Assembly: GCA_009760855.2 (NCBI GenBank) | Contig: WPIO01000151.1 | Span: 336,501 to 400,500 of the forward strand | DNA from: Cristatella mucedo | Taxonomy: Eukaryota; Bryozoa; Phylactolaemata; Cristatellidae | Direction: 5' to 3' | DNA: 64,000 nt | Shown here: positions 3,598 to 63,415 of the stretch, piece after piece | Numbering within the stretch: the stretch's first letter is position 1 | How the letters are laid out: the number at the start of each line of letters is the position of its first letter | Notes under the pieces: model-generated | What the model was told of the DNA's origin: nothing | What the model saw: the letters and a program-made list of their open reading frames with translations, nothing else | Databases searched by the model: none | Made by a program: the position numbers and the translations under genes

Positions 3598-3732
3598 CTA
3601 GTTCGTGTGAAAGGACCATATGTCGTCTTCTACTTGCTGCTTCTGATATTTTTTGGTGCTTTCTACGTCATAAACCTCATTCTAGCTGTCGTACGAAATG
3701 CGTACGGAACAGAGGCTAGCGAGGAGGCTCGG
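3598..3732 (+). CDS. Nav exon: domain I S6
   Basis: 45 codons, phase 0 to 0. The acceptor is TCTCTTTGCAG, with a good pyrimidine tract, and the donor is CGG|GTAGGT. It encodes the end of the domain I pore: a short extracellular stretch (LVRVKGPY), then S6 with LLLLIFFGAFYVINLILAVV. The S6 asparagine and the Gly in FFGAFY match the Nav consensus FLGSFYLINLILAVVAMAY. The residues after AVV are RNAYG instead of the usual AMAYE. The exon finishes with TEASEEAR, the start of the cytoplasmic I-II linker. A second donor four bases downstream is possible but would break phase with the next exon. Confidence 0.93.
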
Positions 3733-6377: not shown

Positions 6378-6638
6378 GAAGAAGCGGCTCGCGCTAAGAG
6401 AAACGAGAACACGGCACTACTATTCGATCCGACAAAGCTGAAAGAGCGACTGTCGTCACAGCAGCATTCGGCCGCCGATGCTGCAAGCATTGTCAACGCT
6501 CCGACCGCTGAAAGTAGTAGTACAGTCAAGCCGTCGACGGCGACGGTTGCAACGCCTCCTCAGATTGTCATCAACGATGGCTGCTCGCTGCTACAACCTG
6601 AGGATGGGGGACAGAGGAGTGCAGAATTCGACGAGCAG
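6378..6638 (+). CDS. Nav exon: I-II linker, part 1
   Basis: 87 codons, phase 0 to 0, starting directly after TGCATAG. It begins EEAARAKRNEN, the Glu/Ala/Lys-rich segment expected just after domain I S6, then a hydrophilic Ser/Thr/Ala-rich stretch with FDPTKLKERL and VATPPQIVIN. No membrane segment, so cytoplasmic linker. The donor CAG|GTACTC is chosen because the next exon also starts in phase 0. The frame stays open past this donor to a stop near 6800, and a second phase-0 donor (GCG|GTACTT, exon end 6774) could give a longer exon. Ser/Thr richness suggests phosphorylation, an inference only. Confidence 0.82.
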
Positions 6639-7324: not shown

Positions 7325-7885
7325 CAGGTCAGATTACACTTTCAGCAATGTGACACTACAAAAACTCAGGCTTGCTCACGAGGATATTTCATTTAAATTG
7401 GTCCACTCATTGCGGTATCCAGTCAGGACTTATGTAACTCACTGCTCTCATGTCTTCCAACCTGTGCTATAAAGTGCTTACCGTTGCCACAAAAGCTCTG
7501 CAGCCACGTTATCTGTTGCGTAAGTCGCTGCTGCCCTGGTACACCACTTCTTGATGAGCTACACTGGATTCTTATCAAGCTGCTTATCGACATCGCAGTT
7601 ACGCAGTTACATACGCAGTTACGTTATTAAATTGTTGGTTCTTTATTGTTAATTGTTGGTTCTTTAATTCTTTATTCTCTAGCTTCAGCCTACCTACGAG
7701 AGCTACTCCCCAACCCTAGCATCGCATCACGCACTGTTCAGACTCAAATCCTATGGCGACGTGCCAAATCTATCCTAAGTCTTTTCCAGCCCTTGATTGT
7801 AGTTCGTATGCACTCAAAGCATGGAACTTACTCCCGACTACCTTCACTGCATTATCTGGTTGACGACATTAAAAAAGGCTAAAAC
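7325..7885 (+). mobile_element. LINE family A fragment (decayed)
   Basis: Matches the RT C-terminal region of family A at low identity: remnants of ACLDKDT, CNSLL and AYLRELLPNP. It ends near TTAAAAAAGGCTAAAAC, the position where other copies read TTTAAAAAGAACTTAAAAAC. First of three partial copies in the same orientation. Confidence 0.6.
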
Positions 7886-7904
7886 GTACCCCTCCGTGGT
7901 TACA

Positions 7905-8425
7905 AAGAGCTACATGTGCACCTGCCACAACTTATAAATGCCTTGCTGGCCTACCAATATGTGCAGTCCTGCGATTACAGCTGGTGCAAACCTCAGCAAC
8001 TAGGCTTGTCATTGGTGCGCGTCACAGTTGCCAAATCATACAACTTCTCGCCGACCTGCACTGGCTACCAGTCAAGCAACGGATCGACTTCAAGGTCTTG
8101 TCGCTCACTTTTAGGTCACATCATTCTTTAGCTCAAGCTTATCTCTCAGATCTACTCCCCCGCCTGGCCAAGCATTGTACCACTAGCTTTTCGAAATCCA
8201 ACAGTTTACCAGTACCTCGTATAAACCTCAAATTCTGTGGAGACCCTGCATTTAGTTCGTATGCTCCCAAAGCCTGGAACTCACTCCTGACTTGTGTCAG
8301 AACATCATCTGACTTGACCACATTTAAAAAGAACTTAAAAACACCTATTTAGGACAGCATTTAATGGGTCCCTGTGATTCGTCCTTCATGTGCTTATGCG
8401 TGCTGACACTGTGCATGCTGCCACG
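7905..8425 (+). mobile_element. LINE family A fragment
   Basis: RT C-terminal region, better preserved: [19 protein letters not shown], then the terminal FSSYAPKAWNSLLT and TTFKKNLKT. Stops in the 3' UTR at GTGCATGCTGCCACG, before the hairpin and tail. Confidence 0.85.
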
Positions 8426-9881: not shown

Positions 9882-10098
9882 CTCAAATTGGAGGCAGTTT
9901 CAAGTCGAAGCATGTACCATTTGAACGTTGACGGCGATCGCGACAAAGAAAGTGCAAGTCCCACTCCAAGCCACTTAAGCGGGACAGAAGACGTGGACGT
10001 CGAGATGATAGCCGAAGACATATCTTCTCTCGATAACCGGCATAAACGCTACTTGCTGCAAAAATTTGCCACGCTGTGGCTAAACAAGATCAAGTCTG
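9882..10098 (+). CDS. Nav exon: I-II linker, part 2
   Basis: 72 codons plus one base, phase 0 to 1. Acceptor TACTTTATAG, donor TCTG|GTAACT. Begins LKLEAVSSRSMYHLNV, continues with a Ser/Pro and acidic region (SASPTPSHLSG, then EDVDVEM) and ends with a basic/aromatic stretch, KRYLLQKFATLWLNKIKS. It fills the cytoplasmic linker before domain II. The SASPTPS stretch holds SP/TP sites that proline-directed kinases could use, an inference. Start and end are supported by phase agreement with both neighbours. Confidence 0.85.
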
Positions 10099-11299
10099 GT
10101 AACTGGCAGCTTCGTCGAAAGAAACTATTTATTGCTGAGCATTGTACTTTGGTGGGATTTGTTGGTTGAGCTTAGAGTCAGCAGGCTGTCCGTATGTTGC
10201 AAGCTAGGTTTTCTCAGAGACACCGGGCGAGTGACATCTCCAAGCGTGCAAGGTCTCGCTTATAATACTTGTCGCCCTAGCACCGGGATGCAAGGCAAGC
10301 GAATTGCAGAAGCAGCTACTAGCACACCCGATTTGCACGATAGCAGCATACAAGATCAGATGTGCTGTCAATACCTAAAAAAAGATCCACTCTCCTACTT
10401 GAAAAATCCGGCTTGATTTTAACTACAGCCACTAGTTGTTAGTAAGTCAAAGTAAGTAGTGATAATTTAATTATATATAAGTGAGAACCGCACTCGATTT
10501 GGGCCGGGCAACAACTGAATTGATTACCAAATGTGTCGAAACCTTATTGTATAAATCGAACCTACAGACTTTATTTAATCCTTGTGGTAGCTGTAACCAC
10601 GTCTGGTAAGAAGACGTCTGCTGTAATAAGCTGCTGTTAATTCGATGCAAAATTTACATTCTTGAGATTATTTTTCGTGAGGAAGCTTACATTTTACCAT
10701 TGAAAAAATTGTGAATGATGAAAATGGTGTGCTCCATGACAGCCTGCACTGACGGTTCTGAGTTTGCGTCAATATGGAAAAGCAAAATCCCAAACAGACT
10801 TTTAAGCCACTCAAGATCAGTAATTATGAAACTTGTATCATGGTACGAATAATACCGATAAGCATGCGAATATTTATTTTTATTTTACTCCTGAATTATA
10901 TGTGTGGTGTTTGCAGCCCTGGCTTGCAGACCTGCAGAGTTGAAGTACTCGCCTTTGGCGACCAAGGCATTGGGCTCGAGGCTGCCGGAATATTTTAAGT
11001 TCCTTAATAGATATTGAGTTCTTTTAGGGTGCAATGCTAAAAAATATGTATTTACTGCAGTAGATATGCGGGATATTAAACCCGCAACAGCGGTGCTTTT
11101 TTCCGACCAATAAAGCAGCTGCCTACTTGATCTACATTGCAGTTCACAACTTGACATAGGGCTAGTGACCAACTCAACTTTTGGAAGCCTCAACCTAGAT
11201 TCCGTAGCCTCCAAAAGTCTGCTAGTGATCTGACTGGTGCAAGGCCAACGTGCCACTTACCAAGCAGGCTACTTAATCAGCCTCCCGATAGAAGTTAAC
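10099..11299. other. Intron 4, first part
   Basis: No element recognised. A 95-codon open frame from 10132 has an exon-like middle (10220-10400), but its splice phases do not fit the neighbouring exons. Confidence 0.45.
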
Positions 11300-14275: not shown

Positions 14276-14752
14276 TGCATGATCAGCAGTTCTATGTTAG
14301 TTCAAATTATATTGTCAATTCAATTTTTCATTTAACTAAATCTCATATTATATTAGGCGCTGTAGAATTCTATTAACCTAATAATGTGCATCTGACAAGC
14401 TATGTTTCTAGTTAAATTGGGGCAATGAAATATATTTATTTCCAAATTCCGATTTGAGCATAGATAGAAACTAGTACAGCCATAGTGAATATGAAGCAAG
14501 AGCAATTTATTCAGACAAATGAAAACTTTAATATATTCATATTATGCAGAGTATTTTTCTCAGTTAGAAAATCGGCAAGATACAGGTGCGATTGGCACTC
14601 TGGTCACAAAAATGTAGCCGGACACAGGAAGTGCTGTAGCCATTGCTGAGAAACATGATTTAAGGCATGCAGTGTATCACTTGGCCTACTGGTATTTTAC
14701 CCAATGTACCCGGAGGTCGATACTTCAAATCTGAGTTCTTCCGATATTTTAG

Positions 14753-14976
14753 AGGACGATCAGCTAATTGATAGAAACTGCACGGGCTGCGGGAAAATTG
14801 GTTTTAACGGTTATCATGACTGGATCAAACTGCAGAACATGGTTTTCAAGGTCGCAACCGACGGCTTGTTCGAGCTTTTTGTTACTCTGTGCATTGTTGC
14901 AAATACGGCAGTAATGGCCAGCGAATTCGATAGCATGACTGAATATCACCGCACTGCCAACGAGATCGCCAATCAG
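14753..14976 (+). CDS. Nav exon: domain II S1
   Basis: Two bases plus 74 codons. The acceptor TTCTTCCGATATTTTAG gives the phase (two bases) needed by the previous exon; the donor is CAG|GTAACC. Starts in the linker (EDDQLIDRNCTGCGK), then an amphipathic WIKLQNMVFKVATD and S1: LFELFVTLCIVANTAVMA. This matches the Nav start of domain II ([20 protein letters not shown]). It ends in the S1-S2 extracellular loop at TANEIANQ. Usual acidic residues after S1 are replaced by SEFDSMTEY. Confidence 0.93.
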
Positions 14977-15960
14977 GTAACCAGCGGCAGCGAATGAAAG
15001 CTCTTCTGAATAAGACAGCCTGCTTAACTCTGGAGGCTCTGATCATGACTAACAACCCGTTGCCGTCCTATGAGCACTTTACTTTACTAGAATAACAGCT
15101 GCTATATTTGGGTAGTGTGATAGCCAGAATAAATACAAGCGCGAGCCTCTGTTTTTCGCCGTTCAATTGACTAATTATTTTCTCTCTTTACTTTGCTGGG
15201 TATTGATTAGCTCCTAACTTTTTAACTTTTTTAACTGAATGTTTTTGAACGAGCCGTAACGAGAATTCACTAATTTGGGCTGCGGTCTCGTGGTTACTTA
15301 TGCTAACAAAAAGCAGCCTAATTGGAAGCTAAAAGCACACTGAGAAATTATCTGAGAATCCTACATTCATTTTATGTTTTCGATGAACCGTTTGCTTGCC
15401 CTTGGATCCTTTAGCGGAACCCCTGTCTCCAATATTTGAGCCCGAGTCTCTCTTATCCCCGTCCTCATTAGTAAAACGGAGGTTATGTTGTCTTAGGAAT
15501 CTCTCTCTCTCTCTCTCTCTCTCTGAAACTACAAAAAATTAAAAATTTCCCGAAATTTCCATTACAATTTAAAGCTGCTTTCAAAATGCGTACGGCAATC
15601 AACAGACTTTCTCAGACAGCACAAAGAAACAGACGAATAGCTAAAATTAGGAGGACACTCGTGGCAGTAATTTGCATCGGATTAACATACTATGGGGCCG
15701 CTAGAAAACACGTGCCTGAGTTAGCAGCACGAAGTTTTCCGTATCATTCTGTAAAGCAATTTGGAAGCGTATTCTACGATCTTGAATCGACGATAATGGT
15801 CTGCAATCACCGACCATCAACTGCAAGAATGAAACAGCCAATTTCTTGTCTGAGAGGCATGATGAATCTGAAACTGATGGCAAAGTTCAGTTGGGCATAA
15901 AAGAGCCAATGCCATAGCAGAATTTGTGGGTCACATTAAAAATTAAAAAGTACTTGCTGA
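14977..15960. other. Intron 5, first part, nothing recognised
   Basis: Contains a CT microsatellite at about 15500-15524 and a 104-codon open frame at 15586-15900 without family signature or splice context. No gene supported. Confidence 0.45.
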
Positions 15961-20970: not shown

Positions 20971-21174
20971 GTATTTACGTGGATTTTTACCGTGGAAGCT
21001 GTCCTGAAAATTATAGCTCTCAGCAAGGAATATTTTAAGAATACCTGGAACTTATTGGACCTGATCGTGGTCATATTCAGTCTGCTGGATTTCATATTCG
21101 CATATGCCCCTTTAAACCGTGCAAATAAGAAGAGCATGAAATCGGTGCTAAAAATTATGAAAATATTCAGGCTG
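20971..21174 (+). CDS. Nav exon: domain II S2-S4
   Basis: 68 codons, phase 0 to 0. Acceptor TACTTTGTAG, donor CTG|GTGAGT. S2 is [15 protein letters not shown], with the conserved Glu and Lys of the Nav S2 charge pair; S3 is [18 protein letters not shown], keeping the key Asp. S4 begins at the end: [11 protein letters not shown]. Positive charges sit at every third residue, but the first two are Lys instead of Arg. The S4 helix is finished by the next exon (LRIMKLAQSW), so the intron cuts through the voltage sensor. Confidence 0.95.
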
Positions 21175-23865: not shown

Positions 23866-24095
23866 TTGCGCATCATGAAACTGGCTCAGTCTTGGTCGAC
23901 GCTCCGCTCGTTGCTCGAGACCATCTTCTCAACGATTAGCGCCCTGGTCTACGTCGCCTTGGTTCTCTTCATCATCCTTTTCTTGTTCGCCGTGCTGGGC
24001 AGTCAGCTGCTCGGCGATGGCTACAACAACTTCGACTACATCCAAAGAGGACTAAATACGACATATGTTTACGACTATCATGGATCAATGCCTCG
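23866..24095 (+). CDS. Nav exon: domain II S4-S5
   Basis: 76 codons plus two bases, phase 0 to 2. Acceptor TGTCCTCTTCAG, donor CG|GTAAGC. Completes S4 (LRIMKLAQSW, versus LRVFKLAKSW in typical Nav), then the S4-S5 linker STLRSLLETIFSTISA and S5 LVYVALVLFIILFLFAVLGSQL. The family's GMQLFG end of S5 is here GSQLLGD. The extracellular turret has NTTY, a possible N-glycosylation site. The last turret text, GSMPR, leads into the P-loop exon only 112 nt downstream. Confidence 0.95.
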
Positions 24096-24207
24096 GTAAG
24101 CGGAGCCGCGTCGCCTGCCTTCTCTCTCCCTTTGCATTGGGCCAGTGCCTGCACTAGCTAAAACTTGTTCGATATCCCATCTAGTTTGGTAACCTGTTTT
24201 TTTTTAG

Positions 24208-24367
24208 CTGGAATTTCATCGACTTCCCACATTCCCTATTGGTCGTCTTTCATGTTATTTGCATGGCTTGGATAGAATTGTGCTGGGACTGCATGAACGC
24301 CAATCCTGAATCTAAATACCTTTGCCTGATCATCTTCATCCTGACGCTGGTTTTGGGGCAATTTCTG
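24208..24367 (+). CDS. Nav exon: domain II P-loop and start of S6 (filter residue Ala)
   Basis: One base plus 53 codons, phase 2 to 0. Acceptor TTTTTTTTTAG, donor CTG|GTGAGT. Reads RWNFIDFPHSLLVVFHVICMAWIELCWDCMN, close to the Nav domain II pore ([31 protein letters not shown]). The CGEW motif that carries the selectivity Glu is CMAW here: Gly to Met and Glu to Ala. The outer-ring Glu two residues later (WIE) and the WDCM motif remain. S6 begins LCLIIFILTLVLGQFL and ends in the next exon. The frame and both splice sites are clean, so this is not an obvious pseudogene lesion. Confidence 0.95.
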
Positions 24368-32511: not shown

Positions 32512-32860
32512 ATGCTCAACCTTTTCCTTGCATCTCTTCTGGATGCATTCAGCGGTGACAATGTAAAGAAAGAGAAAACGGTAAAACAGGAAAGCAAACT
32601 AAAGAAGAGCTTGATGCGCATTAAGCACTGCTTCAAAAAATCCTCCGGTGCATCATCAAAGAGATCTATTACCCCTGCAAGCTTCTTCAGCGATCGGAAT
32701 TCTATTGCTGCTAGCAAGATGACCATGAGGCGACCATCTTTAATCAAAGTTGAAGGAGCGCAGGTGGTTAACGAGAGTCATGTGTCGATGAAAAGTGGAC
32801 TGCCGCTAGATGCATCGCTTGTCCTTCAAGCCAAGAGTCAGGCATCCATGAGGAGTTCAG
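32512..32860 (+). CDS. Nav exon: end of domain II S6 and II-III linker, part 1
   Basis: 116 codons plus one base, phase 0 to 1. Acceptor CCGTTGTAG, donor TCAG|GTGCGT. Opens with MLNLFLASLLDAFSGDN, the Nav IIS6 end (LNLFLALLLSSFSADN), joined in frame to LVLGQFL of the previous exon. The rest is cytoplasmic linker: strongly basic (KKSLMRIKHCFKKSS) and Ser-rich, with MRRPSL, a good match to the PKA consensus RRxS. Phosphorylation is inferred, not shown. The first codon is ATG but it is internal to the protein. Confidence 0.93.
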
Positions 32861-33424
32861 GTGCGTATAAATAAATGAAATTGTGGGTTATTAATAACAT
32901 TAATAATCTGATAATGATTTTACTTTTGCATCTGATTCTCAGAGCACATTATCACTTTCTGGACACCTAACCTATGCTCAAAAATAATCATGATCGAACA
33001 GCTGGTGCACAGTGTCAATGAGGGTAATGCCGTTAGAGGTGACATGCACAGTGCCAGGATATGACCATGGTTTTTGGCTACATGCACAGTGCCGGAACGC
33101 ACAAACACTTAAAGGAAAACGACAAGGACCCATAAAATGGAATATAAACATTAGCGCCAGTAGATTTTTTAAATTTCATCAATTCAGGGATGTCAATACT
33201 TCAGTCGGGATTGAGTCCACGGCTTTGAGAGCATATGAACTACTTAAGTCACTGTATTAGGTATTACTGCCTAATTGACCTTACTGATATTCACATTGGC
33301 GGTCAGCCTTATGCATCCGCATGCTGCTTGTTTGACAGTGATGTCCTTCCACGAATGTGAAATTAATATTTATGGCTGGTCATCATACTTTCTTCCAATC
33401 GCACTAGCCTGTAGCCATCGAATG

Positions 33425-35521: not shown

Positions 35522-36073
35522 CGATGGTATGGAAACAAAACAAGCTCACAATTTATTGACTAAAGAATATCTAAAGCTTACCTGTAAGCGTTCCATTTTT
35601 AAGTTCCAGCCCATTTTTTCAACAAGAAATACACGTTTTGTATCAGGTTACTCATCGGAAAAGTGAAAGAATGAGCAAACTCATTTTTAAAGGTCCTGCA
35701 TCGCCTCAATGAATTAAATCCCTGCAATATGTAGACATATTAATTGTTTAGCTGACTTGCAGCTGGCGGCAAAACCAGTACATTTTCTTCGAACTATTGT
35801 GGTGGCATATTATGGTCTTATATTCCTTAATTTAAAATTGTTTTGAATAGGCACCACTGTTTTTAGCTTCTCATGAATTATTTTATTCACAGCAGTTCCT
35901 TACGGATCAATATGATGATGCCATTGTTCTAGAAGTAACTGAACGCGATTTTAAGACTCCTATGTGCGAATTTCTCAAGATGCTTAAGCTTGCATGATTT
36001 ATTCCAATACGTGTCCCTCTATCACAAGTCGAAGAGTACTAGTCCGGTGACAATGTTCAGCTATGTGTTTCAG
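35520..36073. other. Intron 9, end
   Basis: AT-rich; nothing recognised. Confidence 0.5.
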
Positions 36074-36207
36074 CAACCCCGGTACAAGCCTTGAGTCGCC
36101 CAGAACTCACTCAGCTTGGTCTAACTACGGATCTCATAATCGACGGCAAAGAGACCGCTGCTCTATCGGTGACGACTAAAGCTTCGAGTGGCGTCCTGCA
36201 CAAAACG
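36074..36207 (+). CDS. Nav exon: II-III linker, part 2
   Basis: Two bases plus 44 codons, phase 1 to 0. Acceptor TATGTGTTTCAG, donor ACG|GTATGC. The two leading bases complete the codon left by the previous exon (G + CA = Ala). Text TPVQALSRPELTQLG and SVTTKASSGVLHKT is hydrophilic linker with no membrane segment and no motif I can name. Confidence 0.82.
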
Positions 36208-36708
36208 GTATGCGACAGCAATGTCGTAAAAGTGATGACCTTTGAATATAATAATTCATTATTAGCAGTAAAGTTGATTGTTCTAACCATTTAAGTTGCA
36301 TTTTTTACTAATCAACAAGCTTTCTTCTACCTATTCCTTTCTCGCATTCATGGCACACTAAAAGCAGCCATTAAATATTTTTGAGGCAGAGAGTAATACT
36401 CACATGAAGTTGATTGGCTGATTGAAGTCTGTAGTGCGATATTGATTGAGGTCAAGTTTGAGATTGATGCATACTAATCACCTGCTTGTGTTTTACTTTC
36501 ACATTGCTGGTTGGAAAGTAGCTCGATCAGGTACACCTCAAACTGTGCCGGACTCTGCAACAATCAATACGGCAACATCGGCTGACTGGTATACTTATAT
36601 TCTATTGGATTGATTCTGAACGCTAATCTACTCAGCAATTTTCATATATTTAAATTCACTGAAATATCAGTTCACGTGTTGTGCATCCTCAGCTCATCAG
36701 GAACTGAG
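36208..36708. other. Intron 10, possible missed microexon
   Basis: About 500 nt, no repeat recognised. The acceptor phase conflict at its 3' end suggests that a short exon could be hidden here. Confidence 0.35.
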
Positions 36709-37039
36709 GAGGTCAGGCAAGCTTGCTGTTATACGCAAAAGGGTTTCAAACACGTTATACGTTTTAAGGACCCCGAGATTTCTGCAATGAATCTGCAGAA
36801 CATCGAGCAGGCCTTCCAGACACATCGCGACCACTACGCAAGATTTGAAAGCGCCGTCGTGGCGAGCCAGCTCGGCACGAGTCCAATGCTTCGAGGACCA
36901 GTCATTATAGCTGAGGACTTTTCGGATAACCCGGATGTCCGCAAGACGATATTCCTACACGGCGGCACGGATGCTGCTGACGGGGACATGATGGAGAGCT
37001 CTTCTGAGGATGAAGAAGAAAACGCGGAGCAGCAAGAAG
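36709..37039 (+). CDS. Nav exon: II-III linker, part 3 (acidic end)
   Basis: 110 codons plus one base. The donor GAAG|GTAGTA agrees with the next exon. The start is less sure: 36709 (after CTGAG) is the only nearby AG that is in phase 0 with the previous exon, but the better-looking acceptors GTGCATCCTCAG (36692) and CTCATCAG (36700) are out of phase. The sequence includes GFKHVIRFKDPEIS, NLQNIEQAFQTHRDHYARF and VIIAEDFSDNPDVRKTIFL, and ends in an acidic run (MESSSEDEEENAEQQE). Cytoplasmic. If a small unseen exon lies between 36207 and 36690, one of the upstream acceptors could be used. Confidence 0.8.
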
Positions 37040-37403: not shown

Positions 37404-38235
37404 TCCTCTCGTTAGACGACCACATCAGCTCCACAGTCAAATCTGCCTATTTTCAGCTTCATAACATTGCTAAAATTAGGGCTTGTTTAGATAAGGATAC
37501 CACGTCCAAGTAGGTCCATGCATTCGTGACATCCCGTCTCGACTTCTGCAACTCACTGCTTACTGGCCTACCAGCATGTGCGATCAGGCGATTGCAGCTG
37601 GTGCAAAACTCTGCAGCTAGGCTTGTCTGTCATGAGCGTCGCAGTTGCCACATTACTCCACTTCTCGCCGACTTGCACTGGCTACCAGTGAGGCAACGGA
37701 TTGACTTCAAGGTTTTGTCGCTCACTTTTAGGTCTCTTCATTCTATGGCTGCAGCCTATCTTTCAGATATACTACCCCCATCAGGCCAAGCATCGTACCA
37801 CCCGCTTCTCGGAATCCAATAGTCTGGAAATACCTCGTACAAACCTTAAATCCTTTGGAGACCGTGCATTTAGCTCGTATGCTCCCAAAGCCTGGAACTC
37901 CCTCCCGACCTGCGTCAGATCATCCCATGACCTGACCACATTTAAAAGAAACTTAAAAACACACCTATTTAGGACAGCATTTAGTGGGTCCCTGTGATTC
38001 GTCCTTGATGTGCTTATGCGTGCTGACACTGTGCATGCTGCCACTAACCACATTTGCATGCTGACCCTGTGCATGTCACCCCTAACCATATTATTCATTT
38101 TGTTTGTTTTTCAAGCATGATTTTACTTACCATTCAATTGCATTTCACTTTGCAGCAAATGTAAAGCGCCTAGAAAGAGATTGAGTTCTCTGAGGGCGCT
38201 TTATCAAGTGCAATATTATTATTATTATTATTATT
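37404..38235 (+). mobile_element. LINE family A, well-preserved 3' copy
   Basis: RT C-terminus with few lesions: [80 protein letters not shown]. Then the 3' UTR, the hairpin AAAGCGCC...GGCGCTTT at 38163-38202 and a (TTA)n tail. A good reference for the family's 3' end. Confidence 0.93.
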
Positions 38236-40860: not shown

Positions 40861-41383
40861 TAACTAAGAACTACAAACTTTAGCACAAATTCAACTTTTC
40901 TGAGAACTGTACAAAACGTTTTCGATTCCATTTAGTGCCCTTTTATTTCAGACGTCCCTCCTACCTCAGAACTAGCGAACGAGGCATAGTACAAATCAGG
41001 GGAGTAGAGAGAAAAATAATAAGGACGTTGCATGGTGAAAACTGTTAAGCGACCACAAAAGAGTGACTTTAAGCACTTTTAAAATTTAGAAGCACCTGTG
41101 AGTACCTGTGTATAATTTCGTCATATTTGGGAGGGCAGTGGAAAGCACGTATTTTGCGAACTGGCAACTAACTGTGAGTTATGTCATTTTCAAATCTAGG
41201 GCATTCACCAAAACTATCCGCTGTCACTTTTTTGCATGCAATTTTTATCTAGCCATGACAAACGGCTACAGCTTGACTGTACTGTTCTGGCTTCCTCGTT
41301 CAGCTGCCATTGAACACTTGAAGAAGTGTACCTGCAATACTGTGCCTCAGCAGAGCCAGAAACGTCGCGTCTCTTTGTCGCAG
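40861..41383. other. Intron 11, end
   Basis: No element recognised. The last part is open in the frame of the following exon, but a stretch-in-frame is not by itself evidence of coding. Confidence 0.4.
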
Positions 41384-41537
41384 GCACAAAGGAGGAAGAG
41401 GAAGAAGTTGACGACCGGGTGAGGAAGATGAAGGAAGTAGAGCAAAAAGCCAGGGAAGCTGATCAGGGCGAGTTGCAGAAGACGGCCACAGGAGAGGTCA
41501 TTGTGCCAAGTTGCTGCTTCGCCGTATGCTATACGAG
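41384..41537 (+). CDS. Nav exon: II-III linker, part 4
   Basis: Two bases, 50 codons, two bases (phase 1 to 2). Acceptor TCTTTGTCGCAG, donor CGAG|GTAAAA. TKEEEEEVDDRVRKMKEVEQKAREAD has high helix and coiled-coil potential, then EVIVPSCCFAVCYT opens the cysteine-rich segment just before domain III. Comparable cysteines occur at this place in other Nav channels (CFPEGC-type text). Both end phases agree with the neighbours. Confidence 0.9.
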
Positions 41538-42142: not shown

Positions 42143-43321
42143 AGACGGCCCGAACACCCAAGAACGTGATAGCTGTGGCTATTTTGAGATTTTTGTGGTT
42201 AATGCATCAATGGCATCAATTATTTCGTTTTAGTTCCTCCTGCAGTCAGTTTATGGCCAGTAGAGTGAGTGGCCAGCAGAGGTTATTACGACACTGCAGT
42301 TGGTTTATTTCTTGCTGCAATTTATGGCGGGGATATTTAAGTAATGGGTGGCAGAGGCCAGGGAGTTGCGACGTGGGTGCAGAGCGAGATGGTGGCGTAC
42401 AGGCACCTGCAGAATACGTGTGAATAAACGCCTTTGAGCTAGCTTCGGTGTTCTGAATGGTGCAGCCTACCTGCCGTTATTGAGAATGTCAAACTAAAAT
42501 AGCGACGTTGGTTCAGGTGTGCAGCGATTTCCACAGAGCACTATTGCCCCGATCCTCACTTCACTGGAGATTTTAAACCTATGGAGCAACTCTTTACCCA
42601 CAGCACTAAATGGCTATGCCAGGACCGTGCACGCCTACACACAAGCATAATAACACAAAATGCTATTCGTGAGCCCTATAGGTCAGTATACGGTGGCATC
42701 TGGTCTATGTTCCCCGAATTTTATTGGTATCTAACTCTATCTACCAAATTGTATGTATATGTTGCTGGCTCTCCCTGCCTCAAGAGCCGCACCGTAGAGG
42801 ATGTACCAGTGTGCTGAGATAGGAAGGGCTTAGGATGAACCGGGAGGTGTGTAATTTCGGCCTGCTATCCACAGCAGGGGCTGATTGATGTCGGCTTAAC
42901 TATCAACCTTGGCCATAACTTAGTCCAAAAAGAATCATCGGGAATTTTGTAGACATTCAATAAGGACTCAGTTGCTCACCCCGTGGTCGAGTAAAACTAG
43001 TAATTCTTTACTGTAATTTTTCGAGGCGCCGGCACATATACCACTAAGCTCTTACCCAAGTGTATTGGCTAGCTATTAAGGAGTGATTCGACGCTTCTCT
43101 GAAGTGATTGTCTGATGAACGTAAGTTCTAAGGAATTTTGCTAAGGTCAAGTCCTTTAAGTTTCCCTGTTTTTTCTCTGCATTTAAAACTTATAGTATCT
43201 TACTTACGTAACCGGTTTGATATTGGCACAATTATTAGCCATCTGTTTAAATGCTGGGCGGCCTAGACGGCTGCCAGGCAATTTAGTGTAGCACTATGAG
43301 CTGTCTGTCTATCTTTTACAG
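42143..43321. other. Intron 12, second part, nothing recognised
   Basis: No family signature. Open frames at 42166-42423 and 42581-42817 are not convincing. Confidence 0.45.
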
Positions 43322-43625
43322 CTGCACATGTTGCAATACTGTGTGCACTACAAGATGGACTGATTTCCGACAGGTGTGCCTTAAGATCTGCACTAATTCC
43401 ATTTTTGAATGGTTTATCATGGTGATTATCATACTAAGTAGTCTTACGCTAGCCCTGGAGGATGTGTACCTAGAGCAAACACCAGTATTGGAAACCATTC
43501 TGACTAATACCAACTTCGTCTTCACAGCAATCTTCATAATTGAGATGACGGTCAAGTTGTTTGGGCTGGGATTCCAAAAATACTTGACATCTGGCTGGAG
43601 CTTACTGGATGGGGCGATAGTCACG
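43322..43625 (+). CDS. Nav exon: domain III S1-S3
   Basis: One base plus 101 codons, phase 2 to 0. Acceptor TCTATCTTTTACAG, donor ACG|GTAAGT. Starts CTCCNTVCTTRW (cysteine-rich, cytoplasmic), then FEWFIMVIIILSSLTLALEDVYLEQ, which is Nav IIIS1 ([25 protein letters not shown]). S2 is FVFTAIFIIEMTVKLFGLGF and the start of S3 is WSLLDGAIVT. The acidic and basic residues expected in S2 are present. The next exon completes S3. Confidence 0.95.
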
Positions 43626-44982
43626 GTAAGTGCAATGCAAGATCGCCTGCTCGCAAAGAATGATTAAGCAGCGACCCCTGTTTGCAGCACATTGCTGACG
43701 TCACAAGCCTGTTCAGCTGTTCAGAGCCACTCAGGCCTTGTTTCTGCTCGAGCCATGGCTTTTCGTACACACATACTCACGCACACAAGCGCGAAAACAC
43801 ACAAGTATACACACAGACACACACACACACACACACACACACAAGCGCTCGTGCGCCCACACACTCGTGTATATATCCTCTTTATTTCAGCTAACGTCTT
43901 CACTCAAAATCTCTCTTAGATTATGTACTCATTCTTTGAACTTTTTATTTTTTTATATAATACCCAATTACAGCCAAATTTATCCCACGGGCCAGTAGTT
44001 CTTCAGTAGCTCCACTTTCACTTCACCAAGTCTCATTTGGCATTCACATTGTTGAACATGTTACCGTCTACATATCATTGTGAAGTGATTTTACTAGGAA
44101 TAGCTATTAAAACAAATGCAAGTCGCGCCTAGTACTCACGGAACTATAAGCGCTCTAAAGCGATTAGAACTAAAGGAAATGAAATGTTAGCTTATTAAAC
44201 AGCCTGGTATACTTAGTGGTCGATCAGATTTGGTGACTTTCACAACGATTCACAGAGAGGAAGTAGGAATTTTCTGTTGCATGACTCAAACCGACGACCA
44301 GTGTTGCGAAGTGCTAACATAATATCACTGTTCTAATACCATTTTTAAAACGAATACAAAATGCACTAGGCATTTACGAACAGTTGCGTAGCTCCTTTAT
44401 GCTTGGTAAATAAAATATTTTCGGAGCTTCCTTTTTATTCTGCTTGCAAATTGTGATTACCATGAGCTGGGGTCTTAGGCGTAGTGATTTTTTAGTAACT
44501 GCGAATTGATGTGCCCTGTTGAGCTTGCTTAACCATTAGCTCACGGCATTTCGACTTGATAAGCGGGGCTTAAACAGAATAGCTTCTAATTTCACTTACC
44601 TCACACAACAGCTAATTTCGTTTGAGCTATATCCCTTTATGAACTTCGTTTACCGTTAAACTAGTTTTTAAGATCTCGCATTGCTAGGTTGGTGAAAATT
44701 AGGATTTGTATTTAATTGTACAAAAAATACTCTCGGAGCACTGGCTCAGTCAAAACGAGTTAGAGGAAGGGCCGGACTTTTATTTGTATGTAGTTTAAAG
44801 TAGTGCGTAGGTTCTTGATCTCCTGAGGTTTGTAGGCTGATCATTTGAGTTATCCTTATTGCGATAATCCCTGAGGCAGCTTTTTTGCCGCAATGACTCG
44901 ACTGCTGACAATAAATGTTACGACATAAGTGAATTAGTCAGAATCCCTATCGCCATCGCTCTGCCTCTACTCTCACTCTCAC

Positions 44983-45036
<54 letters not shown>

Positions 45037-45295
45037 TCTCTCTCTCTCTCTCCATCTCACTCTCTTTCTATCTCACTATCTTTCTATCTCTCTCTCTATC
45101 TCTTTCTATCGCTCTCTATATCCCTCTCTTGGTTTCTCTTAGCTCTTAGCTCTTGCTCACGGATTGAAATTCTAGACACAGATAAAAGTTTGACCGTTGA
45201 AGCCATGCTCCATTCTTAAGCGTCAATCAGCAGCCGTGATACATACCACTTGTCTGCGATTATAGCAAGAGCTTGTTTCGCTGGTTTCTTTTCAG
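43626..45295. other. Intron 13 with CA and CT microsatellites
   Basis: CA-rich run at 43771-43846 and a long imperfect CT run at 44967-45128. The remainder is AT-rich with nothing recognised. Confidence 0.6.
44967..45128. repeat. (CT)n imperfect microsatellite
   Basis: CTCTCT run, pure at its centre, with CTAT/CCAT interruptions toward the right. Confidence 0.97.
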
Positions 45296-45421
45296 ATATC
45301 CATTGTTGACATAATTATGAGTTTAATCCCAAACCTGAGCAAACTCACATTTCTCAAAGCCCTGAGGACGTTTAGAGCCCTTCGTCCTCTTCGTGCTGTC
45401 TCTCGATGGGAAGGTATGAAG
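45296..45421 (+). CDS. Nav exon: domain III S3-S4
   Basis: 42 codons, phase 0 to 0. Acceptor GGTTTCTTTTCAG, donor AAG|GTAAGG. ISIVDIIMSLIP ends S3; [23 protein letters not shown] is the voltage sensor, nearly identical to the Nav consensus ([23 protein letters not shown]). Six basic residues at intervals of three. This sensor is intact, in contrast to the Lys-rich one in domain II. An earlier GT inside GGTATG is rejected because the family keeps GM(K/R). Confidence 0.96.
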
Positions 45422-50230: not shown

Positions 50231-50602
50231 ATCGTGGTGAACTCTCTTCTGTTTGCGATGCCCGCAATCTTCAATGTGCTGCTTGTGTGTATGTTATTTG
50301 GGTTGATATTCTCCATCTTGGGAGTGCAGCTCTTTGCCGGGAAATATTACGCCTGCTACGACCCAGAAAACGACCCTTCGTCACCGATCGTCAATGACCG
50401 TTATTGGTTACCGTTATATAATATGTCGGGTCATTATACGAACGTCACCGACATAATATCGTGCTTGAATCAGGACTACACGTGGAGAAATAGACTGGTA
50501 AACTTTGACAACGTGATTAACGGATACATCGCCCTCTACCAATTGGTTACTTTCGAGGGCTGGATGGAGCTTATGCAGTCTTCAGTCGACAGCAAGGACG
50601 AG
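50231..50602 (+). CDS. Nav exon: domain III S4-S5 linker, S5, P-loop (filter residue Glu)
   Basis: 124 codons, phase 0 to 0. Acceptor GTGCTTCGTTGTAG, donor GAG|GTAACT. IVVNSLLFAMPAIFNVLLVC is the S4-S5 linker and S5 start; S5 ends ILGVQLFAGKYY, as in Nav. The long extracellular turret holds NMS and NVT, two possible N-glycosylation sites, and cysteines in YACYD and ISCLN. The P-loop reads VNFDNVINGYIALYQLVTFEGWMELM. The residue that is Lys in DEKA channels (TFKGW) is Glu, as in DEEA channels of the Nav2/DSC1 type. The exon ends SSVDSKDE. Confidence 0.96.
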
Positions 50603-53695: not shown

Positions 53696-55735
53696 CTGGA
53701 AGTTATCATCCAAAATGCTGATGTCAACGATCAACCATCTCCTCAACTGCTCCCAGAATAGCTCCTTACCTGATGATCCTAGTGAGGATCTAGCCGATCG
53801 CTTCTCTCGATTCTATGTGCAGAAGATAGACAAGATCAGAGTCCATCCCTGCAATGACAACATCCCCACTGCAATGTTGTTCCCCAATTCCTGGCTGCAC
53901 CTCAATGTCTACATTTAAGCAGGTCACTAGTGATCACGTCCTGAAGTTCATATCCCAATCAAAGAAGACAACAAGTCCTCTGGACTCTATTCCCACTGTC
54001 CTGTTCCTACGTTGCATTGATCTGCTGCTGCCATGCATAACTAATATCATTAAAATGTCATTAGCCTCAGGTCATGTCCCAGCACCTTTCAAAGGGCTGT
54101 AGTCAAACTTGTTCTCAAGAAAGCGACAATAGACGAAGAAAACTTGAGCAACTACTGCCCAGTCTCCCTTCTACCAGTCCTATCAAAGACACTGGAACTG
54201 GTCGCGGCGGACCAGCTGAACTCATATATCGAAACTTCAAACCATGCTAGTAAGCTCCAGTTTCGCTTTAGAGGTAATCATTTCACAGAGTCAGCATTGC
54301 TTAGAGTATACAACGACCTACTTGGGAATCCAGACATAGGTAGATTGTCTTTGCTTTTTTTGCTTGATCTTTCGGCAGCTTTTGATACTATCGATCACAA
54401 AGTTCTTCCAGAGCGCCTCTCATCTCGCCTGGGCATCACCGGCACTGCTCTGCCATGGTTCAGGTCCTATTTCAGATAGAGACTCCAGAGTATTGACGTG
54501 AATGGACAAATATTATCCAAGGTACCTCTGAAATATGGGGTACCTCATGCCCCGTGCTAGGTCCGACTCTTTTCATGGTTTATACTCTCCCTCTTGCTGA
54601 TGTGATTGCCAAGCACAATCTAGGCTTTCACTTCTATTGGGATGACACTCAGTTGTACCTTTGCTTTGATCCCTCCCCGCCTTCGAGCACCTCAAATTCT
54701 CTCAACTCTCTTGCAGATGAATTGATGACATTTGTGCATAGATGGCCGCAAAATTTCTGAAACTAAACGATGATAAAACTAAGTTATGGGCAAACGCAGT
54801 GGAATTCAGAAATTAGAAAGGCTGACGCTCAAAAGTGGCTCTGCCAGCATATCTCCTGTTGAATCAGCTCGAAATATAGGTATCATGTCCCAAAGTGACC
54901 TCTCGTTAGACGACCACATCAGCTCCACAGTCAAATCTACCTACTTTCAGCTACATAACATTGCTAAGATTTTGGCTTGTTTAGATAAGGATACCACGTC
55001 TATGTTGGTCCATGCGAGCGTAACATCCCGTCACGACTTCTGCAACTCACTGCTAACTGGTTCTACTGGCATGTGCGATCAGGCAATTGCAGCTGGTGCA
55101 AATCTCTGCAACTAGGCTTGTCTGTCGTGAACGTCGCAGTTGCCACATCACACCACTTCTCGCCAACCTGCACTGGCTACCAGTCAAGGAACGGATAGAC
55201 TTCAAGGTTTTGTCATTCACTTTTAGGTCACTTCATTCATTCGCTCCAGCCTATCCCTCAGATCTACTTTCCCACCAGGCCAAGCATCGTACCACCCGCT
55301 TTTCGGAATCCAACAGTCTACCGATACCTTGTACAAACCTCTAATCCTTTGGGGATCCTGCATTTAGTTCGTATGCTCCCAAAGCCTGGAACTCCCTCCA
55401 GACTTGCGTGAGAACATTCCCTGACTTGACCACATTTAAAAAGAACTTAAAAACAAACCTTTTTAGGACAGCATTTAGTGGGTCCCTGTGATTCGTCCTT
55501 CACGTGCTTATGCGTGCTGACACTTTGCATGCTGCCACTAACTACATTTGCATACTGACCCTTTGCATGTCTCCCCTAACCATGTTATTCATGTTGTTTT
55601 TTCATCAAGCATGATATTACTTACCATTCAATCGCATTTCCTTTTGTAGAAAATGTAAAACCCCTAGAGAGAGAATAAGTTCTCCGAGGGTGCTTTATCA
55701 AGTGCATTATCATTATTATTATTATCATTAGAAAA
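53696..55735 (+). mobile_element. LINE family A, best RT copy
   Basis: Plus strand. RT from the upstream linker (LADRFSRFYVQKIDKI) through [52 protein letters not shown] (YADD changed to YWDD) and SARNIGIMSQSDLSLDDHISS, then the C-terminus, hairpin and (TTA)-type tail at 55735. Frame breaks at several points. Joined head to head with the minus copy at its left. Confidence 0.9.
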
Positions 55736-60300: not shown

Positions 60301-60438
60301 ATTGGACTGCAGCCGACACCGGAGAACAACCTAAGTTACTATGCTTTCATCGTGGTCTTTATATTTATTGGGTCATTTTTCTCACTGAATCTGTTCATTG
60401 GTGTCATTATCGACAACTTCAACATGCTAAAAAAGCAG
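60301..60438 (+). CDS. Nav exon: domain III S6
   Basis: 46 codons, phase 0 to 0. Acceptor GTTGCTTTTCTAG, donor [25 protein letters not shown] continues the VDSKDE end of the previous exon and corresponds to VDVQPKYEENLYMYLYF in other Nav channels. S6 is [25 protein letters not shown], with the conserved Asn. It ends MLKKQ, at the threshold of the III-IV linker. The inactivation motif (IFMT-type) would be in the next exon; I do not find it in the remaining 3.5 kb. Confidence 0.96.
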
Positions 60439-62044: not shown

Positions 62045-63415
62045 CGACTACAACCTCTACCTTTGCTTTTGATAGTATCGATCATAAATTTCTTCCAGAG
62101 CGCCTTTCATCTCGCCTGGGCATCACTGGCACTGCCCTGCGATGGTTCAGGTCCTATCTCAGTGGAAGACTCCAGAGTATTGACGTGAATGGACGGAGAT
62201 CATCCAAGGTACCTCTGAAATATGGGGTACCTTAGGGCTCCATGCTAGGTCTGGTTCTTTTCACGGTTTCTACGGTATATATATCACTCTTGCTGATTGC
62301 CAAGCACAATCAAGGCTTTCACTTCTATGTGGATGACACTCAGTTGTACCTTTGCTTTGATCCCTCCCAGCCTTCGAGCAACTCGAATTCTCTCAACTCA
62401 CTGGCAGCATGTATTGATGACATCTTCACATGGATGGCAGCAAATATTCTTAAACTAAACGAGGATAAAACTAACTTACTACTTATGGGCAAATCAATTG
62501 TGATTCAGAAATTGGATAGGCTGGCACTAAAATCGGCTCTGCCAACAAATCTCCTGTTGAATCAGCTCGAAATATAAGTCTCATGTTCCGAAGTGACCTC
62601 TCGTTAGATGACCACATCAGCTCCACAGTCAAATCTGCCTACTTTTAGCTTCATGACATTGCTAAAATTCGGGCTTGTTTAGATACAGATACCACGTCTA
62701 ACTTGGTCCATACATTCGTGACATCCCGTCTCGACTTCTGCAACTCACTGCTTACTGGCCTACCGGCATATGCAATCAGGCGATTGCAGCTGGTGCAAAA
62801 CTCTGCAGCTAGGCTAGTCTGTCGTGAACATCACATGTCCACATCACACCACTTCTTGCCGACCTGCACTGGCTACCAGTCAAGCAACGGATTGACTTCA
62901 AGATTTTGTCGTTCCCTTTTAGGTCACTTCATTATTTGGCTCCAGCCTATTTCTCAGATCTACTCCCCACCAGGCCAAGCATCGTACCACCTGCTTTCAG
63001 AATCCAACAGCCTACCAATACCTCGTCCTAACCTCAAATTATTTGGAGACCGTGCATTTAGTTCGTATGCTCCCAAAGCCTGGAACTCCCTCCCGACTTG
63101 CGTCACAACATCCCTTGATTTGACCACATTTAAAAAGAACTTAAAAACACACCTACCTTAGGACAGTATTTATTGGGTCCCTGTGATTCGTCCTTCATGT
63201 GCTTACGGCTGCAGACACTGTGCATGCTGCCACTAACCACATTTGCATGCTGACCATGTGCATGTCACCCCTAACCATGCTATTCATGTTGTGTATCAAA
63301 CATGATATTACTCACCATTCAATTGCATTTTCCTTTGCAGTAAATGTAAAGCGCCTGGAAAGAGATTGAGTCCTTTGAGGGCGCTTTTATCAAGGGCATT
63401 ATTATTATTATCATT
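62045..63415 (+). mobile_element. LINE family A, 5'-truncated copy
   Basis: Begins in RT (TTTGATAGTATCGATCATAAATTTC), [14 protein letters not shown] (YADD changed to YVDD), [46 protein letters not shown], hairpin with GGGCGCTTTT and a (TTA)n tail. Confidence 0.92.

Follow-up and report, generated by a model that had tools for sequence, protein, structure and literature searches.

Gene 3 in a tandem array of Nav-type genes

We analysed a stretch of 64,000 nucleotides from Cristatella mucedo (hereafter the window), which corresponds to positions 336501-400500 of contig C57 in an assembly of 572,011,866 bases and 688 contigs. The window holds the middle part of gene 3, which is third in order among four Nav genes arranged in tandem on C57; ion-channel matches align along this contig from about 78 to 537 kb. 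A genome-wide search with domain IV gave 10 matches: four without stop codons on C57 (at 162.8, 265.3, 410.7 and 536.3 kb), two from one broken copy on the same contig (302.2-302.7 kb), and one each on contigs C244, C210, C332 and C110. The gene count of the array is based on this search and on a domain II search, both of which score best candidates only. The broken copy (C57:302167-302707) is a decayed domain IV copy of the array and contains stop codons. Domain I of gene 3 lies upstream of the window and domain IV downstream, with the open frame ending at 411.9 kb, and the spans compared on C57 were 334136-411917 for gene 3 and 463826-536874 for gene 4.

Four homologous Nav-type domains were found for gene 3, each with a charged S4, and by eye the voltage-sensor charges are retained in all four. 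The best PDB matches of the domain I, II and III pores and of domain IV are Nav channels. Pfam assigned Ion_trans to the pieces of domains I, III and IV; the IQ and GPHH matches in the tail fell below the curated cut-offs, and the linker piece had no Pfam match. In the two genes whose III-IV linker was read, the IFM motif is absent (ALLTESQ in gene 3, TLLTESQ in gene 2), so that fast inactivation is expected to be weak.

All features of gene 3 in the window lie on the forward strand, and gene 3 aligns with gene 2 as a collinear chain of 21 segments, to which the identities below refer. The domain I S6 exon (LVRVKGPYVVFYLLLLIFFGAFYVINLILAVV...; 3598-3732) is open between a cag acceptor and a gtaggt donor and is 80% identical to gene 2. 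It is followed by two I-II linker segments whose ends are not fixed, the coding part at 6378-6608 (43%, in the same order as in gene 2) and 9882-10118 (50%), and by the domain II S1 region (14737-14979, ends likewise not fixed, 65%). The exon for domain II S2 to S4 (20971-21174) is open between a tag acceptor and a gtgagt donor and has an Ion_trans match (C57:357438-357689); neither this exon nor that for domain I S3-S4 is matched by gene 2 within the chain, and a nearby 5 kb of gene 2 reads N. The end of domain II S4, S5 and the outer loop occupy 23866-24095 with splice flanks (61%), and the domain II pore exon follows at 24208-24367. The end of domain II S6 continues into a II-III linker segment at 32512-32868 (ends not fixed, 57%), followed by a possible linker segment at 36067-36261 (38%) and two further ones at 36769-36972 (57%) and 41374-41535 (52%). 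Domain III begins with the S1 to S2 region (43317-43631, 66%) and the S3 to S4 region (45290-45419, 71%, the matched stretch running to 45433), and continues with an S5 and pore exon with splice flanks (50231-50602, 80%) and an S6 exon between a ctag acceptor and a gtgcgt donor (60301-60438, 74%).

Introns of the window, for example at 7873-8349, 37514-37994, 54054-55341 and 62236-63158, contain broken frames that by eye resemble LINE-type reverse transcriptase, and frames of the same kind recur in the introns of gene 2. Scans for Rfam families and for tRNAs gave no rows, and a scan for tandem repeats gave 20, none of them relevant to the channel.

The selectivity filter of the four genes

The domain II pore exon of gene 3 is an open frame that reads CMAW, compared with CGEW in Nav channels. 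Its acceptor reads ttag before C at 24207/24208 and its donor reads gtgagt after CTG at 24367/24368, and its translation is WNFIDFPHSLLVVFHVICMAWIELCWDCMN... The motif is encoded by TGC (24260-24262), ATG (24263-24265), GCT (24266-24268) and TGG (24269-24271), and the Ala codon GCT occupies the filter position that is Glu in Nav1 and Nav2. When this exon was searched against PDB with phmmer, 31 distinct sequences aligned with E values from 1e-8 to 9e-5. Among the matches listed, the Ala lies under the Glu of CGEW in five alignments to human Nav channels, and the Met lies under the Gly that precedes the filter Glu in human channels. The loop has no acid nearer than the Glu of the outer ring, three positions on (WIE), so that a shifted alignment would still leave the filter without its Glu. 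The first-pass annotation had proposed from the letters that Glu is replaced by Ala in domain II (CMAWIE), in an exon with clean splice sites and an intact frame; the codons and the PDB alignments bear this out, although the start that it gave, 24264, is the second base of the Met codon.

In domain III, gene 3 carries TFEGW, which aligns under TFKGW of human Nav channels; the same annotation had the residues right and placed them at 50548-50562, one base before their true site at 50549-50563. The filter residue here is Glu rather than Lys throughout the array, with TFEGW in genes 1-3 and SFEGW in gene 4. The domain I Asp and the domain IV Ala, the two residues that the first-pass annotation had advised reading from the transcript and that were read here from the flanking contig, align under the Asp and Ala of DEKA in human channels among the matches listed. 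The complete ring of gene 3 is thus D-A-E-A (MDRWED, CMAW, FEGW and VAGW in domains I-IV), which agrees with the earlier suggestion that none of DEKA, DEEA and DKEA describes it. The outer-ring Glu residues of domains I and II are retained (WED, WIE).

The loss of the domain II Glu is not confined to gene 3 as a single odd gene. Glu is absent at this position in all four array genes, with Ala in one and Ser in the other three. Gene 2 reads MDHWED, CMSW, FEGW and LAGW; gene 4, read in part, has MDHWED, CMSW, FEGW and VAGW; and gene 1, also read in part, has MDHWED, CGSW, FEGW and VAGW, so that each of the three is D-S-E-A. The filter codon is TCC in genes 2 and 4 and TCA in gene 1. Because three tandem paralogues carry Ser where gene 3 carries Ala, a base error is unlikely, and we rejected it as the source of the Ala.

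The residue that follows the domain I filter Asp also varies (region of C57:334370-334372, upstream of the window): gene 3 has Arg here, genes 1, 2 and 4 have His, and human Nav1.6 has Tyr.

Constraint on gene 3 and other sources of a domain II glutamate

For the dN/dS comparison of gene 3 with gene 2, 19 of the 21 segments were used, trimmed to their likely exon ends; the two weakest linker segments (6378-6608 and 36067-36261) were dropped, and codons with stops or N were set aside. Over 1,664 codons, dS was 0.74 and dN was 0.185, which gives a dN/dS of 0.25 (0.04 to 0.57 per segment). For the pore exons, the ratio was 0.10 in domain II (51 codons) and 0.17 in domain III (124 codons). Between gene 3 and gene 4 the ratio was 0.32 (five segments, 754 codons); one of the five, domain II S5, reached 1.17 over 77 codons with few changes. 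These ratios suggest that gene 3 is under purifying selection and that decay is unlikely, as the first-pass annotation had held, and with the 21-segment chain conserved and its segments open, we rejected a decaying copy.

The dS between genes 3 and 4 is uneven, at 0.05 for domain II S5, 0.09 for domain IV, 0.18 for the domain I pore, 0.27 for the domain III pore and 0.40 for the domain II pore, as if the tandem copies swapped sequence through gene conversion.

The first-pass annotation had named two routes by which the message might still carry Glu, another P-loop exon and RNA editing. When C57:160001-420500 (260,500 bases, of which 5,000 are N inside gene 2) was searched with the domain II exons of gene 3, gene 1 and C210, the only matches with E < 0.1 were exons of genes 2 and 3, and no Glu-bearing domain II exon was found; an alternative Glu exon was rejected on this basis for the searched 260 kb. 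As to editing, neither A-to-I nor C-to-U conversion can turn GCT into GAA or GAG, so deaminase editing cannot restore Glu.

When the domain II exon was searched against the whole genome, eight matches were obtained: the four array exons, C244 (E 4.5e-8), C210 (E 2.1e-6), C332 (E 3e-4) and C111 (E 3.9), the last of which is probably a chance match. The genes on C244 and C210, read in domains II-IV, are Nav1-like, with CGEW in domain II, TFKGW in domain III, and AAGW and SAGW, respectively, in domain IV. No further close relative with a domain II Glu was found among the best candidates scored in this genome-wide search. Since C244 and C210 were reached at 43-44% identity, a nearer exon of DEEA type would be expected to be visible, unless it is split, unassembled or below the search's first look.

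On C332 (about 13.244-13.299 Mb, minus strand) lies a third, divergent Nav-type gene with ALGEYTDALW in domain II, TTGEW in domain IV and few S4 charges; the best PDB match of its domain IV is human Nav1.2 (E 9e-53). In the Nav1-like gene on C210 (3040301-3040800, minus strand), the open frame of domain I S5 continues into a long stretch of some 30 Gln, which may be part of the message; no pore loop was seen in these 500 bases, which hold S5 and the Gln run.

In an unrooted table of seven domain IV sequences, gene 3 shares 45-46% identity with C244, C210 and human Nav1.8, and human Nav1.8 shares 57% with C244 and 56% with C210. These identities fit a Nav2 position outside Nav1, and they could also reflect fast change in the array. 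Kinship with Nav2 is probable from the Glu in domain III, the linker and these unrooted identities.

A two-carboxylate ring and its place among known channels

Taken together, the sequences indicate that the array is a Nav2-like variant with a D-A/S-E-A ring, that is, of Nav2-type build but without the domain II Glu. As read here, the filter is real, array-wide, under constraint, and undescribed in animals within the literature searched. As to function, we lean towards a Nav2-like, voltage-gated cation channel with two filter carboxylates and weak selectivity. Its history would begin with a single loss of Glu in the ancestor of the array, to which the Ser common to genes 1, 2 and 4 points; the Gly before the filter position would then have become Met (genes 2-4), and Ala would have been gained last, in gene 3. 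The pore would open on depolarisation, and the carboxylates of domains I and III would face each other with water in the gap, in place of the usual three-carboxylate ring of Nav2. With one carboxylate fewer and no filter Lys, Na+ and K+ would be passed with little discrimination, and Ca2+ would probably be bound and passed less strongly than in a DEEA Nav2. The basic neighbour of the domain I Asp (Arg in gene 3, His in its sisters) may weaken divalent binding further, and fast inactivation would be weak without IFM in the III-IV linker.

It is also possible, although we consider it unlikely, that the domain II residue matters little, and that the array behaves as an ordinary DEEA Nav2, permeable to Na+ and Ca2+, for which the domain I Asp, the domain III Glu and the outer-ring acids suffice. 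The retained outer-ring Glu of domains I and II is consistent with this. In the available text of PMC4537306, the E755A mutation of Nav1.4 lowers conductance by only about 30%, and in simulation water fills the space of the side chain, which suggests that the effect of a domain II loss, including the change in Na/Ca selectivity expected in the first-pass annotation, could be mild; however, that mutant was made in a DEKA ring, not in DEEA. In addition, the domain II pore exon belongs to the more strongly constrained segments, yet every copy in the array lacks the Glu, and the Gly-to-Met and His/Arg changes adjoin filter positions, which argues against a position of little consequence.

A further reading, which we regard as rather improbable, gives weight to the domain I basic residue and sees in the array a second solution to filter design: together with the loss of the domain II Glu, this residue would bring the net charge of the ring close to that of DEKA although the filter has no Lys. 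On this reading, gene 3 would be monovalent-preferring, perhaps Na-preferring, and derived from a Ca-permeable Nav2, and its His-bearing sisters would be tunable by pH. It seems more doubtful again that the array has moved to a role beyond plain conduction, as a channel that is tightly closed or acts like a sensor, much as NaX does. NaX offers a precedent, in that this relative of Nav channels, whose ring is altered, can remain silent when expressed in the standard way (PMC8931054, available part), but gene 3 retains its S4 charges in all four domains and NaX has fewer. An artefact of reading is barely credible: the array does contain one decayed copy, the gene models exclude the first coding exons and N interrupts gene 2, but gene 3 is open and conserved, no spare exon matched in the 260 kb searched, editing cannot produce Glu from GCT, and three sister genes carry Ser.

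The array is a constrained natural family without Glu, with the stepwise forms CGSW, CMSW and CMAW beside CGEW Nav1-like genes in the same genome, and it provides a direct test of the role of the domain II carboxylate and of whether a two-carboxylate ring can stay selective.

Among known systems, the animal rings given in the available part of PMC6259924 include DEEA, DEES, DEEG, DEET, DEKA, DEKG, DKEA and DKEG, and Nav1 and Nav2 are described there as sharing Asp-Glu in domains I and II, with the exception of cnidarian DKEA. No DAEA or DSEA channel was found in the open-licence literature, as searched by word match, title and the start of the abstract; the word matches for DSEA with sodium channel concern drug repurposing by title, not channels. 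The first-pass suggestion of a previously undescribed filter therefore holds for animals within that literature.

The RSDD and RADD channels (Verret et al. 2010, as cited in PMC6259924) resemble the array in having Ser or Ala at the domain II filter position; they are found outside animals, and differ in that their domain I residue is Arg and the residues of domains III and IV are both Asp. Two further channels, NaX (DENA) and the heterodimeric one of aphids (DENS), resemble the array as Nav relatives with an altered ring that is thought to cost them Na selectivity (PMC8931054 and PMC4332693, both in part). According to the part of PMC8931054 available, NaX shows no discrimination among monovalents and is impermeable to Ca2+, 1 mM of which inhibits it by about 70%. 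In both, however, domain III is changed and the domain II Glu is kept, unlike D-A-E-A and D-S-E-A. Cav1-3 channels have EEEE, EDEE or EEDD with Asp after the domain II position, whereas gene 3 is D-A-E-A with Trp there. The array shares with Nav1 (DEKA; cnidarian DKEA) the domain I Asp, the domain IV Ala and the overall fold, but it has no Lys in domain II or III and no IFM (genes 2 and 3). With Nav2 (BSC1/DSC1 type; oyster CgNav2) it shares the Nav architecture of four domains, the Asp of domain I, a Glu in place of Lys in domain III, the Ala of domain IV and the absence of IFM (genes 2 and 3). DEEA is reported for oyster Nav2 and for anthozoan and bilaterian Nav2 (PMC5295241), and the accessible portions of PMC4436565 and PMC10120453 agree on DEEA-type rings. 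Nav2 is thus DEEA (or DEES, DEEG or DEET) in the sources available to us, and where it carries the domain II Glu, the array carries Ala (gene 3) or Ser (genes 1, 2 and 4).
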